64,000 nucleotides of DNA from Nesterenkonia xinjiangensis (GTDB taxonomy: Bacteria; Actinomycetota; Actinomycetes; Actinomycetales; Micrococcaceae): positions 3,038,001-3,102,000 of the forward strand of contig NZ_JACCFY010000001.1 in the NCBI RefSeq assembly GCF_013410745.1. Direction: 5' to 3'. The position numbers were made by a program, and so were the translations under genes. Below, one piece after another: positions 20,589 through 27,293 of this stretch; position 1 is the stretch's first letter, and each line of letters opens with the position of its first letter. Under the pieces are notes generated by a model, which saw only the letters and a program-made list of their open reading frames with translations, ran no database searches and was not told where the DNA came from.

Positions 20589-20660
20589 TGGGCTATGGTG
20601 TAATCGGCAACACAGCGGTTTCTGGTACCGTCGTTCTAGGTTCGAGTCCTAGTAGCCCAG
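20589..20660 (+). tRNA. tRNA-Gln (anticodon CTG)
   Basis: A 72-nt cloverleaf folds with acceptor arm TGGGCTA/TAGCCCA, discriminator G, a T-arm containing GGTTCGAGTCC, and anticodon loop TTCTGGT, which gives CTG and decodes CAG. No CCA is encoded. It precedes two tRNA-Glu genes. Confidence 0.95.
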
Positions 20661-20739
20661 CGCGATCCGATTTGCGGATCGAAAACCCAGTCGATAGGCT
20701 GGTGCAGCCCTCGGCGACGAGGGCATCATAATGACATAG

Positions 20740-20812
20740 GGCCCCATCGTATAGCGGCCTAGTACGCCGCCCTCTCACGGCGGTAACGCGGGTTCGAATC
20801 CCGCTGGGGTCA
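20740..20812 (+). tRNA. tRNA-Glu (anticodon CTC), copy 1
   Basis: A 73-nt cloverleaf has acceptor arm GGCCCCA/TGGGGTC, discriminator A, T-arm GGTTCGAATCC and anticodon loop CTCTCAC, giving CTC, which decodes GAG. No CCA is encoded (CGG follows the discriminator). The mature sequence is identical to copy 2. Confidence 0.95.
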
Positions 20813-20860
20813 CGGTCGATGGTCTCCTGTTCCTTTCGAGGGGCGGAGGCCATCTCTCCG

Positions 20861-20883
20861 TCAGCTGCCTTGACGGCAGCTGA
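20861..20883 (+). terminator. hairpin between the two tRNA-Glu genes
   Basis: Arms TCAGCTGCC (20861-20869) and GGCAGCTGA (20875-20883) pair over 9 bp around a 5-nt loop and are followed by AAAAG. It may end the first tRNA transcript or guide processing of a common precursor. Confidence 0.5.
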
Positions 20884-20894
20884 AAAGTGAATAT

Positions 20895-20967
20895 GGCCCC
20901 ATCGTATAGCGGCCTAGTACGCCGCCCTCTCACGGCGGTAACGCGGGTTCGAATCCCGCTGGGGTCA
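20895..20967 (+). tRNA. tRNA-Glu (anticodon CTC), copy 2
   Basis: This 73-nt gene is identical to the copy at 20740, with anticodon CTC. Here CCA follows the discriminator at 20968-20970, so the 3' end may be encoded, unlike copy 1. A 17-bp terminator hairpin follows at once. Confidence 0.95.
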
Positions 20968-20975
20968 CCATATTC

Positions 20976-21011
20976 AGAAATGCCTCGGATCACATGATCC
21001 GAGGCATTTCT
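20976..21011 (+). terminator. terminator of the tRNA cluster
   Basis: Arms 20976-20992 (AGAAATGCCTCGGATCA) and 20995-21011 are perfectly complementary over 17 bp around CA, and are followed by a T-rich TCTGTCTG. This is the strongest rho-independent-like terminator in the window. Confidence 0.9.
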
Positions 21012-21098: not shown

Positions 21099-23531
21099 AT
21101 GACTGGTGCCCGTCCCCAGGCCGCCCCCGGCGGCGCAGACTTGATGATGGTCGAGGCAGACTGGAAGCGCGCGCTCGACCACTGGCAGTCGCGCCCGGCG
21201 GCGGCCCTCTTGGTCGAGGGTGAGCACGGTGCGCCGAGCGAACGCTTCATCCAGGAGCTGGCCCGAGCGACGGGAACCCGCCTGCATCTGCTCGGCGCCG
21301 ACGGGAGGGTTACGGCTGAGGCGGTCTCCACCGTGGTCTCCACCGTGCTGTGCCCCCACCTGGAGACGCCTGCCCACGGGCCCGGAGCCGTCCTGGTACC
21401 CGGAGCGGACCGCCTCGACACGAGTTCGCTGACCGCGCTGGATGGCCTGCTGCGGCAGGAACGCGTGCCCGTGATGCTGACCTGTTGGCCCGGTTCGGAC
21501 TTCGGGTATCGCTTCGCCCGGGTCGCGGGTGCGCCGCGAGGGCTTCGCGTGAGCCTGGACATGCTCCCGGTTGCCGCGACCCAGCGGCTGCTCACGCGGC
21601 TCTTGGGCGTCCCTCCCACCCAGACCCTGACCCGCTACCTCCACCAGGTCTCCGGGGGACATGTCCTCGAGCTGGAGGACGTGGTGGAGGTCGGACTCGT
21701 CGAGGGTTGGATCAGCGCCGCCGGCCGGCGGGCGTCGATCGCGCGACTGCCGGACTGGCTGGATCGGCGCACGGCGCGTGGGACGGTCCGCAGACTTCGG
21801 GAGGGCACGACGCCCGTGGGCCTCGACGTGCTTCAGCAACTCGCCGAGCTTGGGCCGCGCGACCTCTCCTCGCTGGCCGCAGACTCCACGACGCGGGACG
21901 CGGTCTTCGGGCTGGAAGCGGCAGGTCTGGTCGTCCTGGACCGTTCCACGGTCGGGCTCAGCTGTGCCGCGCACCAGCATGCCCTCTCCTGCGACACCGA
22001 GAGGTCGGAACGGTCGCGCGGTGAGCCGGCGCCGGAGTCCGCGCTGGGTAGGGCGCTGCGCGGTGAGCCGGTCGGGGAGGAGGAGGGAATCACCAGAGCC
22101 TCGCAGCTGCTGCGCAACGGGCTCCTGTCCCAGATGCGGGTGCTGCTGCGTCGCATGGATGCCCATGATCCCCGGGTGTCCTGTCTCGAGGCAGCCGCTC
22201 TGGCCGCACAGGGGGCACCGGCTGCAGGACTCGCGGTGTTGGACGCCGGGGATCCTCCCGTGACTGGCGGTGTCGCGACCCTCGCTCACGAGCTGCGGAG
22301 CTTCATCCGTTTCGGCCTCCTCGGCGACCAGGGTGACCCGTCGGGGCCGCGATCAGACCTCAGCGGTCGGCTGTGCACCTTCCGCGAGACCCGGGCCACG
22401 GAGTATCTGCGACGCTTCTGCGCGCCGGCTCCGGGCTCGTGGGCCCCGGTCCTGGGCGACACCGCCCTCAGCGGTGATCTGCAGCCCCTTCAGGTGGAGA
22501 CCTACACCCTGCTCGCACTCGATGCCTACGCCGCTGCGCTGGCCGGCCACAGAGACAGGGCCCGCACGGCGCTCCAGGCTCTCGAGCAGTTCGGTGAGCA
22601 GGGAATCCCCCTGGTGTGCCTGTCCTGGGTCGCCGAACGGGTCAGCGTCGCCCGTGTCCTGCTCGATGCCGCGGATTCGCTGCTCCCCGAGGACTGGACC
22701 ACCCGGCAGGTCCCGGAGCGCACGCTCGCCATGGCTCTGGCCGTCGGCATCGTCGAGGTGTTCCGCGACGTCGTCCGCGGGGTCCGCCCGGAGAGCCTCC
22801 ACGGCCGGCTGGAGGATCTCTGGAGCGAGTTCGAGGCCGGTGGGCCGGGCGGCCACGTCACGCGCATGCAGCTGGAGGCGCTGGACTTCCTCATCGACGG
22901 GGAGCGATCGAGGGATCTCATCGGGCCGCCAGGGGTCGCGGTGACGAGGGTGGGGGAGTCTTACGGGGATGCCTGGGTGACGGCGATGCTCGGGCTGGCG
23001 CGGCTGCTCCACGCCCCGGCTGAGGCCGTCGGCTCCCTCGTCCGGTCCCAGACGAGCGATGAAGCGACCGTCCCTGGGGTGCGTCGTCTCATGCTCCGCT
23101 GTCTGGCGCTGCGGCGCGCGCGGGAACTCGCGACGACGGACCTCGTCCTGCTGCTGCAGGCCTGCCGACGGGTCGACGTCGAGGAGGAGATCCTGGACAT
23201 GCTCTCTGCGCACATCGCAGGAGATGCAATCCAGATCAGGGCCTCCATACAGCGGCTGGGGACGAGCCATCCCCGGCTGCATGTCTGGGAGCATCTTGAC
23301 AGCTCGGGGGAGGGCCCCCTGCGGTGGAACGAGGTCTATGCGACGTTGTCGCCCCGTGAGCGAGAGACGGTCGCGCTTCTGATGAATGGGCTCCGATCCG
23401 CCGATGTGGCTGAGAGGCTGGGGATCAGCCCCCGCACGGTGCAGACCCATATCCGTCACGTGTACCGGAAGCTCGGCGTGGGCTCCCGCACGGCACTGCG
23501 TGCCCTTCTCACCCGGGGGAGTCCTCGCTGA
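21099..23531 (+). CDS. large LuxR-type transcriptional regulator, LAL-like, Walker A not recognisable
   Basis: This 810-residue protein ends in a LuxR helix-turn-helix (LSPRERETVALLMNGLRSAD, then ADVAERLGISPRTVQTHIRH, about residues 750-785). The N-terminal region is laid out like a STAND/LAL NTPase, with an LLVEGEHGAP strand where a Walker A should be and a VLVPGADRL Walker B-like strand, but no GxxxxGKS/T is present. The middle is helical and Ala/Leu-rich. The ATG has an AGAGG site; a TTG two codons earlier is less likely. Its stop overlaps the next gene's ATG by 1 bp. Ligand and targets are unknown. Confidence 0.85.
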   Translation: MTGARPQAAPGGADLMMVEADWKRALDHWQSRPAAALLVEGEHGAPSERFIQELARATGTRLHLLGADGRVTAEAVSTVVSTVLCPHLETPAHGPGAVLVPGADRLDTSSLTALDGLLRQERVPVMLTCWPGSDFGYRFARVAGAPRGLRVSLDMLPVAATQRLLTRLLGVPPTQTLTRYLHQVSGGHVLELEDVVEVGLVEGWISAAGRRASIARLPDWLDRRTARGTVRRLREGTTPVGLDVLQQLAELGPRDLSSLAADSTTRDAVFGLEAAGLVVLDRSTVGLSCAAHQHALSCDTERSERSRGEPAPESALGRALRGEPVGEEEGITRASQLLRNGLLSQMRVLLRRMDAHDPRVSCLEAAALAAQGAPAAGLAVLDAGDPPVTGGVATLAHELRSFIRFGLLGDQGDPSGPRSDLSGRLCTFRETRATEYLRRFCAPAPGSWAPVLGDTALSGDLQPLQVETYTLLALDAYAAALAGHRDRARTALQALEQFGEQGIPLVCLSWVAERVSVARVLLDAADSLLPEDWTTRQVPERTLAMALAVGIVEVFRDVVRGVRPESLHGRLEDLWSEFEAGGPGGHVTRMQLEALDFLIDGERSRDLIGPPGVAVTRVGESYGDAWVTAMLGLARLLHAPAEAVGSLVRSQTSDEATVPGVRRLMLRCLALRRARELATTDLVLLLQACRRVDVEEEILDMLSAHIAGDAIQIRASIQRLGTSHPRLHVWEHLDSSGEGPLRWNEVYATLSPRERETVALLMNGLRSADVAERLGISPRTVQTHIRHVYRKLGVGSRTALRALLTRGSPR

Positions 23532-26113
23532 TGCTGATGCCGCCCCTTCTTGTGGAGGCCCCGGACTTCCGCCCCTCCCGTGCACTGGCGGAGGCCCTGC
23601 TCACCGTCGACGACTACGACGTGGCCGCCGTGATGATCCCGGCCCTCTGGGGCGCCGACGAGCTGCTCGGCGAATTGGCGGGGCGGACCCGAGTGCATCG
23701 GCTGCGCCACGACGCCACATCGGGGGAGTCTCTCGCCTCAGCACTCGGGCCGCCAGGGGTGGAGAATGACGCGGGCGCAGTGGGCTTCATCGTTGTCCAG
23801 CACCCTGCAGAGCTGGAGGGACGGCGGTTCAGCGAGCTGCTGGAGTTCGTGTCCGGCCGGCCCCTGACCGTGTTGCTGATCCTGCGGAGCCAGCAGGACC
23901 TGCCGGAGTCGGTCATCCGGCACGGACGCACCGGCCGGGTGGTGACTCTTGCCGTGCGGGCGCTCACGCCGGAGGACACCGTTCGTGCGATGGTCCGAGA
24001 GCTGGGTGGTCCGGTGACTTCGCTGGCGGCCCGGCGCACGGTGCTGCTCAGCGGAGGCCACCCCCAAGCGGTGAACATGGTGCTCGACCGGGCGCGTCGC
24101 ACCCAGGTGCTGAGACCAGTCGACGGTGTCTGGAGGTGGGAGCCCGAGGAGCCCGCCTTCCGCCGCAGGCTGGCCGAAGAGCTTCCGGAGCTGATGCGTG
24201 GCTTGGAGGAGAAGGAGCATGAGCTCCTCCGCCTGATCTCCTGTGCCTGGCGACTGCCGGAGTCCTGGGCGGTCCGGGAGTTCGGAGTCTGCGTAGTGGA
24301 CAGTCTGCGGGCGCAGGGCCTCATCGGTGTGGATGCCCCGGCTCCTCATGGCCCTCCGGAGCTCAGGATCACCTCGGAGCTGCTGGAGAGCGGCATCGCC
24401 GACCGGATGCGCCCTGCCGAATCGGCTCGCCTCTGGCATGTCATGGGGGCGACGGTCCCCCGGGTCGGGATCGGCGCGACGGCCGAGATCGGCCTGATCT
24501 GGTGGGCGGCACGCGTGGGGGAGCAGGTCGGTGTCGAGGAGGCGCTGCGCGCGGCACGCGGGGCGATCTCACGCTCCTGGTACGGGCCGGGGATCGCGGT
24601 GCTGGACGCGATGGCGGAGGATCCCGGCCCCACGGCGCGGGTGCTCCGTGCCCGCGCCATGCTCGGACTGGGACGCGTGCGGGAGGCGCTCCAGGATCTC
24701 GGGCGGCTCGTCCGGCACTCTCCGGGGGACACCGCCCCGTCCTCTGAGCGGCTCGACGCGCTGCGGCAGGGGCTCCTCCTGGCGCGTAGGCTGAGCCTCT
24801 TCCAGCCGGCTGCGGCGGCCCCGCTGGTCCGGCAGCTCTCCGCGGTGCTGGGGCCGGGGACGACTCCGACACTCGACCGGATCGTCGGCATGGCCGACGA
24901 AGCCGTCTGCCCAGGAGATCCTGAGGACGTCGAAGGCGCCCGCCGGTGGCTCCAGGAAGTGCGCCGGATCCACCAGGAGGCCCCCTGTGACGAGGCTGCC
25001 GTGGCCCAGCTCCATGTCGGCGCCCGCCTCGGTCTCGGACGGCATCCGGACCTCGGACGCCTGGTCCTGTCCTTGCTGCTGGACCAGCTGGCCCGTGAAG
25101 GTGGCCGGCCGGATGTCGAGGAGGCCGCACACAGCCTCCTGCTGATGATCACCATGGTCACGGGGTGGCATACCGACACCCTGCGCCTCGACGTCGGGAC
25201 CTGGCGTCACGGGGCCGCGAACCCGGCGACGGGCGCCGCCGTGGCCGACACGGTCGGGGCCGTCGCCGCCATGCAGGAGGACCGCATGCACACCGCCGCC
25301 CAGTTCGCCGTCTCGGCGATGGCGTCCTGGGAGTGGGACGACCCCTACGGCCTTCTGCCGTTCGCCTCCGCCGTGCACGCCGCCTGCGCCTCGTACGTGG
25401 ACCCTGAGGTCGCCGCCGAGGCCCATCGTGATCTGCGTCTCCGTGGGTTCGAGGAGTCCGCGGGCTTCCCGGCGCTGCGCCTGGCCACTGCCGGAATGGC
25501 CCTGGTAGGGAGCGGCCCCGGTGCCTTCGAGGTCGCCGATGCCCTCGTGCGGCTCGCGGAGCGTGCCCGTGAGGCAGGGGAGTGGGCCCAGGAGCAGCAG
25601 CTGCTCCTGCTCGGAGCGCTCAGCGGCTGGCCTCCCGCTGCTGACGCGATCGGGGAGTCGTCGTGGGGGCGCAGCACGGGCCGGGCCCGCATGATCGGGA
25701 TCCTCGGGGAAGCGATGATCACCGAGTCCGACACGAGGGCCCTGGAGATCGCGGATGTGCTGCTGCAGGCCGGGGCCAGGTTCTTCGGTCTGGCGGTGCT
25801 CATGGTCCGTTGGCAGAGACGCCATGAACTCGACCTGTCCCAGCGGGCCTGGATCGTGCGGACCGTGCTGGAGGCGCGGAGACGGGCGCCGGAGGGCTCG
25901 TGGGTGTTGAGCACCTTCACCGAGCTCGACCTCTCGTCCCGGGAGGAGCAGGTCCTCGGGCTGTTGCGCCGCGGCGAGCCGACCCGCCAGGTGGCCCGCA
26001 TCCTGAGACTGTCACCACGTACGGTGGAGGCCACGATCTCCCAGCTGCTCCAGCGGTTCTCCTGTCGGAACCGCATGGAGCTGATGGAACTCGGACTGGT
26101 GGACCTGGAATGA
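23531..26113 (+). CDS. second large LuxR-type regulator, LAL-like, Walker A not recognisable
   Basis: This 860-residue protein shares the architecture of its upstream neighbour: a degenerate N-terminal ATPase-like region (DDYDVAAVMIPALWGADELL, no P-loop), a long helical repeat-like middle and a C-terminal LuxR helix-turn-helix (LSSREEQVLGLLRRGEPTRQ, VARILRLSPRTVEATISQLL). The ATG shares its A with the preceding TGA, so the two are translationally coupled and may form a heteromeric regulator. The proteins are only distantly similar by eye, indicating old duplication or separate origins. No ligand domain is recognised. Confidence 0.85.
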   Translation: MLMPPLLVEAPDFRPSRALAEALLTVDDYDVAAVMIPALWGADELLGELAGRTRVHRLRHDATSGESLASALGPPGVENDAGAVGFIVVQHPAELEGRRFSELLEFVSGRPLTVLLILRSQQDLPESVIRHGRTGRVVTLAVRALTPEDTVRAMVRELGGPVTSLAARRTVLLSGGHPQAVNMVLDRARRTQVLRPVDGVWRWEPEEPAFRRRLAEELPELMRGLEEKEHELLRLISCAWRLPESWAVREFGVCVVDSLRAQGLIGVDAPAPHGPPELRITSELLESGIADRMRPAESARLWHVMGATVPRVGIGATAEIGLIWWAARVGEQVGVEEALRAARGAISRSWYGPGIAVLDAMAEDPGPTARVLRARAMLGLGRVREALQDLGRLVRHSPGDTAPSSERLDALRQGLLLARRLSLFQPAAAAPLVRQLSAVLGPGTTPTLDRIVGMADEAVCPGDPEDVEGARRWLQEVRRIHQEAPCDEAAVAQLHVGARLGLGRHPDLGRLVLSLLLDQLAREGGRPDVEEAAHSLLLMITMVTGWHTDTLRLDVGTWRHGAANPATGAAVADTVGAVAAMQEDRMHTAAQFAVSAMASWEWDDPYGLLPFASAVHAACASYVDPEVAAEAHRDLRLRGFEESAGFPALRLATAGMALVGSGPGAFEVADALVRLAERAREAGEWAQEQQLLLLGALSGWPPAADAIGESSWGRSTGRARMIGILGEAMITESDTRALEIADVLLQAGARFFGLAVLMVRWQRRHELDLSQRAWIVRTVLEARRRAPEGSWVLSTFTELDLSSREEQVLGLLRRGEPTRQVARILRLSPRTVEATISQLLQRFSCRNRMELMELGLVDLE

Positions 26114-26140
26114 CAGGGGACGTCCCGGCCGGACGGTGAC

Positions 26141-26160
26141 GTCCCATGGGATCATGGGAC
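26141..26160. repeat. inverted repeat at the thiL start
   Basis: GTCCCATG (26141-26148) and CATGGGAC (26153-26160) are perfect inverted arms separated by GGAT. The right arm overlaps the proposed -10 box (GATCAT, 26150-26155) and ends 2 bp before the thiL ATG. It could be an operator or a short terminator for the LuxR pair. Confidence 0.45.
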
Positions 26161-26162
26161 CC

Positions 26163-27293
26163 ATGTCAGAGACCCGCCCCGCCGACCCCGCCGACCCTGA
26201 AGGCGCTGACACGGTCCAGCAGCTCGGAGAGGACGTGGTCCTCGCGGCCCTGCGCGAGGTCATCGATGCCCACAACGCTCACAACGCCCCTGATGCCCAT
26301 CGTGCCCCGGCCCCTCCTGGGCGAGGGGTGCCGGTGGGCATGCCTGTGGGTCCGGGCGACGACGCCGCAGTGCTCCGGCTGGAGGACCCTCGGCTGGTGG
26401 CCACCACCGACACCATGTCCCAGGACCAGGACTTCCGTCCCGGCTGGTGGGCCTATCCCGCCGAGGCCGCGCATGGCGTCGGGACCAAGGCCGCGGCTCA
26501 GAACCTCTCGGACCTCAGCGCCATGGGCGCTCGTCCGGTCGCACTGTTGGTGAGCCTCACTCTGCCTCCGCAGACCCGCCTGGACTGGGCAGTGGGCGTC
26601 ATGTCCGGGATCGCGGCGGCGGCCACGGCGCCCGGCGCTGCGGGGTGTGTGATCGCCGGCGGGGACCTCGGCTCCGGCGATGTCGTGTCGGTGACCATCA
26701 CTGCGCTGGGGACGCCGACCGGGGCGAGGAGCCTGCTGCGCTCGGGGGCGCGGCCGGGAGATCAGCTGGCCGTGTGCGGGCCGCTGGGTCGGGCCGCCGC
26801 CGGTCTGGCGGTGTTGGAAGGGGAGGTGTCGCCCGCGCGGGGCGCCGAATCTCTGCTGGAGGCCTGCCTCGATGCCCAGCGCCGTCCCGCCCCGGACCTG
26901 ACGGCGGGGCCCCGGGCGCTGGCCTCCGGCGCGACCGCGGGACTTGACGTCTCCGATGGGCTGCTGCGCGACGCGGACCGGCTGGCCCGGGCGTCCGAGG
27001 TCGCCCTCGTCCTCGAGGAGCAGTCTCTTGCCGAGGAGATCACTGCGCTGGGCCGTCTGGACGCGCACAGCTCCCGCGGGTGGGTGCTCGGCGGGGGAGA
27101 GGACTATGCCCTGCTCGCGACCTTCCCCGGTGAGGCAGACCTGCCCGAGGGTTTCCGTCGGATAGGAGAGGTGCGCAGTTGCGACGGTGCCCCCGGCGTG
27201 TTCGCCGGGGGCACCGTCAGCGCTGGATGGGACTCGCTCCGGCAGGGCGAGGGGCCCGCCTCGAGGTCCGGCTCTCAGTCCTGCGGGAAGTGA
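26163..27293 (+). CDS. thiL: thiamine-monophosphate kinase
   Basis: This 376-residue enzyme phosphorylates thiamine monophosphate to the active cofactor thiamine diphosphate. PGDDAAVL (about residue 64) and TTDTMSQDQDF bind Mg and nucleotide; GTKAAAQNLSDLSAMGARP, GGDLGSGDVVSV and GLDVSDGLLRDADRLA are typical ThiL/PurM-fold motifs, and GGGEDYALL is near the C-terminus. An upstream in-frame start at 26136 exists, but the ATG at 26163 fits the family and has GATCAT 7 nt before it. No TPP riboswitch is apparent. The 3' end overlaps the convergent ugd gene by 19 bp. Confidence 0.95.
   Translation: MSETRPADPADPEGADTVQQLGEDVVLAALREVIDAHNAHNAPDAHRAPAPPGRGVPVGMPVGPGDDAAVLRLEDPRLVATTDTMSQDQDFRPGWWAYPAEAAHGVGTKAAAQNLSDLSAMGARPVALLVSLTLPPQTRLDWAVGVMSGIAAAATAPGAAGCVIAGGDLGSGDVVSVTITALGTPTGARSLLRSGARPGDQLAVCGPLGRAAAGLAVLEGEVSPARGAESLLEACLDAQRRPAPDLTAGPRALASGATAGLDVSDGLLRDADRLARASEVALVLEEQSLAEEITALGRLDAHSSRGWVLGGGEDYALLATFPGEADLPEGFRRIGEVRSCDGAPGVFAGGTVSAGWDSLRQGEGPASRSGSQSCGK
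27183..27218 (-). terminator. 16-bp hairpin inside thiL, probable ugd terminator
   Basis: Arms 27183-27198 (GACGGTGCCCCCGGCG) and 27203-27218 pair perfectly around TGTT. It lies 57 bp past the ugd stop on the minus strand but within thiL codons on the plus strand, 75 bp before the thiL stop. It most likely ends ugd transcription; its effect on thiL is unclear. Confidence 0.7.

Follow-up and report, generated by a model that had tools for sequence, protein, structure and literature searches.

Two adjacent genes of Nesterenkonia xinjiangensis, here called A and B, encode large LuxR-type regulators which are translationally coupled, were never found apart in the genomes searched, and retain a STAND-like NTPase fold from which the Walker A and Walker B signatures have been lost. 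They resemble and derive from LAL/STAND regulators but fail the defining nucleotide-binding features. On balance, we favour the reading that A and B are an obligate pseudo-STAND LuxR pair descended from ATP-switched ancestors, and that they probably act as an ATP-independent complex controlling surface-polymer genes.

The gene pair and its surroundings

The pair was analysed in a stretch of 64,000 nucleotides (the window), part of a genome of the genus Nesterenkonia consisting of a single contig of 3.57 Mb. Gene A, the upstream partner (21099..23531, + strand), encodes an 810-aa LuxR regulator with a STAND-like N-terminus lacking a P-loop. Gene B, the downstream partner (23531..26113, +), encodes an 860-aa LuxR regulator with a STAND-like N-terminus in which the P-loop is deleted. 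An earlier note, made from the sequence alone, had described proteins of these lengths with C-terminal LuxR helix-turn-helix (HTH) domains, and both the open reading frames and the domain matches bore this out. The LuxR/GerE HTH (Pfam PF00196) was located at residues 749–800 of A (23343..23498, +; E 4.5e-16) and residues 801–852 of B (25931..26086, +; E 1.1e-11), above the cut-off in both, as expected of LAL regulators, which have a C-terminal LuxR HTH and about 800–1000 aa. The two proteins differed from each other in HTH sequence.

The genes overlap at TGATG (23529..23533, +), as had also been noted earlier; the stop codon of A (TGA, 23529–23531) and the start codon of B (ATG, 23531) have a single base in common. 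A Shine-Dalgarno-like run, GGGGGAG, lies about 10 nt 5' of the B start codon. Since the pair is conserved as neighbours in other genomes and both genes are under purifying selection, this arrangement is more than chance.

Directly upstream of A is a cluster of tRNA-Gln(ctg), tRNA-Glu(ctc) and tRNA-Glu(ctc) genes (20589..20970, +; ARAGORN). The two tandem tRNA-Glu(ctc) genes (20740–20970) are near-identical. Between the tRNAs and A, an inverted repeat, AAATGCCTCGGATCA-CATG-ATCCGAGGCATTT, followed by a T-rich tail (20978..21009, +), was recognised by reading the sequence; the consensus scan did not flag it. We read these 32 bases as the putative terminator of the tRNA-Gln/Glu/Glu operon, and a similar structure was also present downstream of the tRNA in genome G001. 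A search for an inverted repeat common to the regions upstream of the A genes gave none; the strong repeat of the window is the presumed tRNA terminator. No sigma-70-like promoter was detected by consensus scan.

Downstream of B lies a thiL-like gene (26136..27293, +), a neighbour outside the module. In several congeners without A and B, the tRNA-Glu cluster adjoins thiL (empty sites at L123, L124, L138, L141 and L147), and A and B thus constitute an accessory module at the thiL site. The gene ugd beside thiL was considered as a functional link to the pair and ruled out, because ugd and thiL are also adjacent in congeners without A and B.

Hidden NTPase fold and loss of nucleotide-binding residues

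No AAA/STAND domain was matched by Pfam in A or B, for which only the C-terminal GerE HTH was reported. Structure and profile comparison, in contrast to Pfam, revealed a hidden NTPase fold, which upheld the STAND/LAL-like layout proposed in the earlier note, and uncovered no intact Walker A or B residues; finding them would, by that note, have refuted its suggestion of a regulator type that has given up ATP. In the AlphaFold (AF2) models (pLDDT 77.8 for A and 83.7 for B), the N-termini of both proteins are predicted to adopt a P-loop NTPase fold of the NOD-type/STAND class. In A, this fold spans residues about 14–307 (21138..22019, +), as delimited by VIA alignment to 2qen, CED-4 and RPP1 and by hhalign; the VIA Z scores of the N-terminal third were 16.4 for 2qen (rmsd 4.7, 262 aligned), 15.9 for RPP1 and 15.4 for CED-4. 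In B, it spans residues about 9–353 (23555..24589, +), based on Foldseek, VIA and profile matches to intact STAND-LuxR proteins, with Z scores of 12.8 for 2qen (rmsd 5.0, 264 aligned) and 12.3 for CED-4. The best Foldseek match of the B model was the STAND protein 6mfv (E 2.1e-7), followed by MalT (8bob, E 1.3e-3).

The profile of B matched proteins of about 900 aa from other Micrococcaceae over profile positions 16–425, with E values down to 3e-28. With hhalign, E values of 1.4e-25 were obtained for A against the upstream intact relatives and of 8.6e-42 for B against the downstream ones. All three intact relatives that were scanned contained AAA_16 and GerE domains. Beyond the NTPase fold, residues about 362–790 of B (24614..25900, +; DSSP on the model, VIA) were modelled as a helical-repeat (TPR-like) superhelix, a putative sensor, and matched TPR superhelices with Z up to 17.9. 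The A model is all-helical past the NTPase region, a part barely covered in the structure search.

The Walker A motif of STAND NTPases, GxxxxGK[ST], was present in none of 12 A and 11 B proteins. In the alignment, GK[ST] occupied the P-loop in 28/28 intact STAND-LuxR relatives of about 900 aa versus 0/23 A and B proteins (0/9 A and 0/8 B in Nesterenkonia; 0/3 A and 0/3 B in a second family). The N-terminal ATP-binding motif expected of LAL regulators was accordingly missing from A and B in both Pfam and the alignments. The earlier claim that neither protein has a Walker A sequence can be refined: GK[ST] is missing at the aligned position in both, and A keeps a recognisable, eroded P-loop. In the window this is GEHGAPSER (residues 41–49; 21219..21245, +), identified by alignment with the 28 intact relatives. 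Across the A family the P-loop decays stepwise, through GPFG[AS]GKG, GPYGAGHT, GFVGAGRR and GQHGCGFT to GEHGAPSER. The first form retains GxxGxGK, including the lysine, and belongs to A of G007, G018 and G028; the lysine is gone in the remaining 9/12 A proteins.

In B, the P-loop is about six residues shorter than that of the intact relatives. In its place, all 11 B proteins carry a P-x-[LYH]-W motif, conserved across two families (PALWGAD in the window, residues 37–43; 23639..23659, +). The former Walker B strand reads AVLVPGADRLD in A (residues 97–107; 21387..21419, +) and FIVVQHPAELE in B (residues 86–96; 23786..23818, +). At the position of the acidic pair, D[DNS] in most intact relatives, A has P-G (VLVPG), and B likewise lacks the pair (IVVQH).

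Distribution, origin and genomic neighbourhood

Full-length A was encoded by 7/30 genomes of the genus and B by the same seven; the other 23 had neither. The pair-carrying congeners were Nesterenkonia salmonea, N. sphaerica, N. haasae, N. massiliensis, Nesterenkonia sp. PF2B19 and Garicola koreensis. Two pairs each were present in the genome of the window (G000) and in G001, where the B gene of one pair runs off the contig end. The second pair of G000 (L009:7191-12241) overlaps by ATGA and is followed by a cluster of WecG, GT2, flippase and sugar-transferase genes. Among 396 genomes of the order, full-length relatives outside Nesterenkonia were restricted to one genus of another family (2/57 genomes), with one pair in G595 and two in G603, all three adjacent with a 4-base overlap. 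Sampling 394 genomes of the class brought up no further full-length relatives.

None of the 11 complete pairs was split, and all were adjacent in the order A-B. Of the eight complete pairs in Nesterenkonia, that of G018 has its genes 2 bases apart, and the other seven show overlaps of 1 or 4 bases. The earlier note had proposed that the two genes may work as a pair and had named their independent occurrence as an argument against this; in the genomes searched, A and B never occurred apart. In phylogenetic trees, A and B each formed a 100% clade, with closely similar, mirrored branching. Pairwise distances of A and B correlated at 0.95 over 55 comparisons, a correlation that shared species history would also produce. 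In both trees, the second pair of G000 grouped with that of G001, so duplicates stay matched.

Coupled tandems of giant LuxR/STAND regulators are by themselves no novelty: other Micrococcaceae have intact, P-loop-positive versions. These are profile-level homologues of A and B and, like them, have about 900 aa, an NTPase (AAA_16), repeats and a GerE HTH, and often come in coupled pairs of an upstream and a downstream member that overlap by 4 nt and adjoin polysaccharide genes. They differ from A and B in that GK[ST] is invariably retained, as are the Walker B acidic residues in most of them, and in forming arrays of up to five genes. At L073–L082, up to five intact genes encoding such proteins of about 900 aa, mostly in coupled pairs, lie near glmU-prs-rplY-pth. 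No characterised member of the group was found.

The A profile scored highest on upstream members and the B profile on downstream members; since the intact relatives are coupled as well, coupling is probably older than the loss of the P-loop. Best HMM matches and leave-one-out trees fit descent of A from the upstream lineage and of B from the downstream one. Joint trees placed A and B apart, with a long-branch warning in one tree; the AU test did not reject the upstream/downstream origin (p 0.12).

Surface-polysaccharide genes adjoin at least 7 of the 11 complete pairs, as they do the intact STAND-LuxR arrays. Genes for WecG/TagA, GT2, a bacterial sugar transferase, Wzz or a flippase were found beside the second pair in each of G000 and G001, the pairs of G010, G018 and G028, and the first pair of G603; a polysaccharide flippase and MurT-like genes lie beside the G595 pair and the second G603 pair. 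The neighbours in G001 and some others were assigned by reading translations by eye. No polysaccharide cluster lies beside the window pair. The earlier description of the genes as sitting alone between the tRNAs and thiL therefore holds for the window locus and not for other copies that adjoin polysaccharide genes.

Every other GerE gene of the genome sits in a frame no longer than 626 aa, and the longest of these frames encodes a response regulator. An intact LuxR-STAND partner acting in trans was ruled out on these frame lengths; AAA_16 matches do exist in the genome. A role as a defence system was likewise dismissed, because A and B, scanned with Pfam, NCBIfam and PADLOC, yielded essentially the HTH alone.

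Proposed mechanism and alternative explanations

An ADP/ATP switch is what STAND proteins such as MalT, APAF1 and NLRs are known for. We hypothesize that A and B descend from a coupled, ATP-switched STAND-LuxR pair of the MalT/LAL-like type that is still intact in other Micrococcaceae. The NTPase fold would have been kept as a scaffold, together with the helical-repeat, sensor-like region and the C-terminal HTH, while the Walker A and B residues were lost. A would assemble with B. The loss of MalT-type nucleotide control implies another switch: the on-signal could be the binding of a ligand or partner at the repeats, or complex formation itself, instead of ADP/ATP exchange. The paired HTH domains would then be placed on promoters, mostly of surface-polysaccharide genes. 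A more tentative extension is that the former ATP pocket was rebuilt, as P-x-L-W in B, into a fixed docking or ligand site between A and B, so that hetero-assembly might replace ATP as the on-signal with both partners nucleotide-free.

Continued use of ATP in a non-canonical way, by A or by a composite A-B site with a degenerate pocket, would mean that the pair works as a regular STAND/LAL switch whose P-loop has diverged. We regard this as rather unlikely. Judging by its motif, A of G007, G018 and G028 (GPFG[AS]GKG) might still bind nucleotide, and purifying selection acts on the NTPase fold: between G007 and G018, dN/dS was 0.11 for A and 0.07 for B, and the NTPase remnant of either protein gave 0.07 as well, rough ratios given a dS above 1. 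The remnant is thus constrained. However, the lysine is missing from the other nine A proteins, the entire loop from all 11 B proteins, and the Walker B acidic residues are gone as well.

The same ratios, at about 0.1, indicate that A and B are not pseudogenes, and it is very improbable that the pair is a decaying remnant without current function and on its way to loss. Progressive motif erosion, the absence of the module from 23/30 congeners and the higher dN/dS of the window A against its G001 orthologue (0.48) would fit such decay, but the reading frames are intact in all 12 A and all 11 complete B genes, the HTH is conserved, and the new P-x-[LYH]-W motif has been conserved across two families. 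It also seems improbable, if less so, that A and B act independently on targets of their own and are coupled by operon structure alone. Their HTH sequences are unlike, and GdmRI and GdmRII, LAL regulators of one Streptomyces cluster, have non-redundant roles (PMC6784220); against this, A and B never occur apart, keep a fixed order and are inherited as units where a genome has two pairs.

Among characterised regulators, the proposed nucleotide-free pair resembles E. coli MalT in layout, which likewise combines a STAND NTPase, a helical-repeat sensor and a LuxR HTH. MalT is encoded by a single gene and is ADP/ATP-switched, the nucleotide state of its NOD governing activity (PMC4381067), whereas A and B are without the switch residues. 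IniR, the top NCBIfam match of A (E 4e-10, mostly over the HTH), is a large mycobacterial STAND regulator of cell-envelope genes under envelope stress (PMC5760070) and differs in being a single gene and a named ATPase. A scored 38.7 bits against the curated cut-off of 750 bits for this family (NF038181), and B was not listed. In paired NLRs, a degenerate P-loop may be tolerated in the sensor. The resemblance to A and B is an analogy only; NLRs have no DNA-binding LuxR domain. In plant sensor/helper receptors, two STAND proteins function as a genetically linked pair (PMC7491719, PMC9975940). LuxR-STAND pairs lacking a P-loop were not reported in the literature searched, which covered few subscription papers.

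If the proposed reading is true, a selectively maintained, DNA-binding STAND pair with both partners switchless would show nucleotide-free scaffold signalling, in parallel to pseudokinases. The graded P-loops make the transition testable, from GKS/GKT in the relatives through GKG, GHT and PSE in the A family to none in B. The intact arrays beside polysaccharide clusters hint that Micrococcaceae have a family of envelope-polymer regulators yet to be characterised.

A degenerate giant LuxR protein outside A and B was also encountered. It has 816 aa and is encoded in two Nesterenkonia genomes (L105:7577-10027 and L106:7378-9828), with P-loops reading SEPGFGVTT and SDPGFGVTT, respectively, in which the lysine is replaced by valine.
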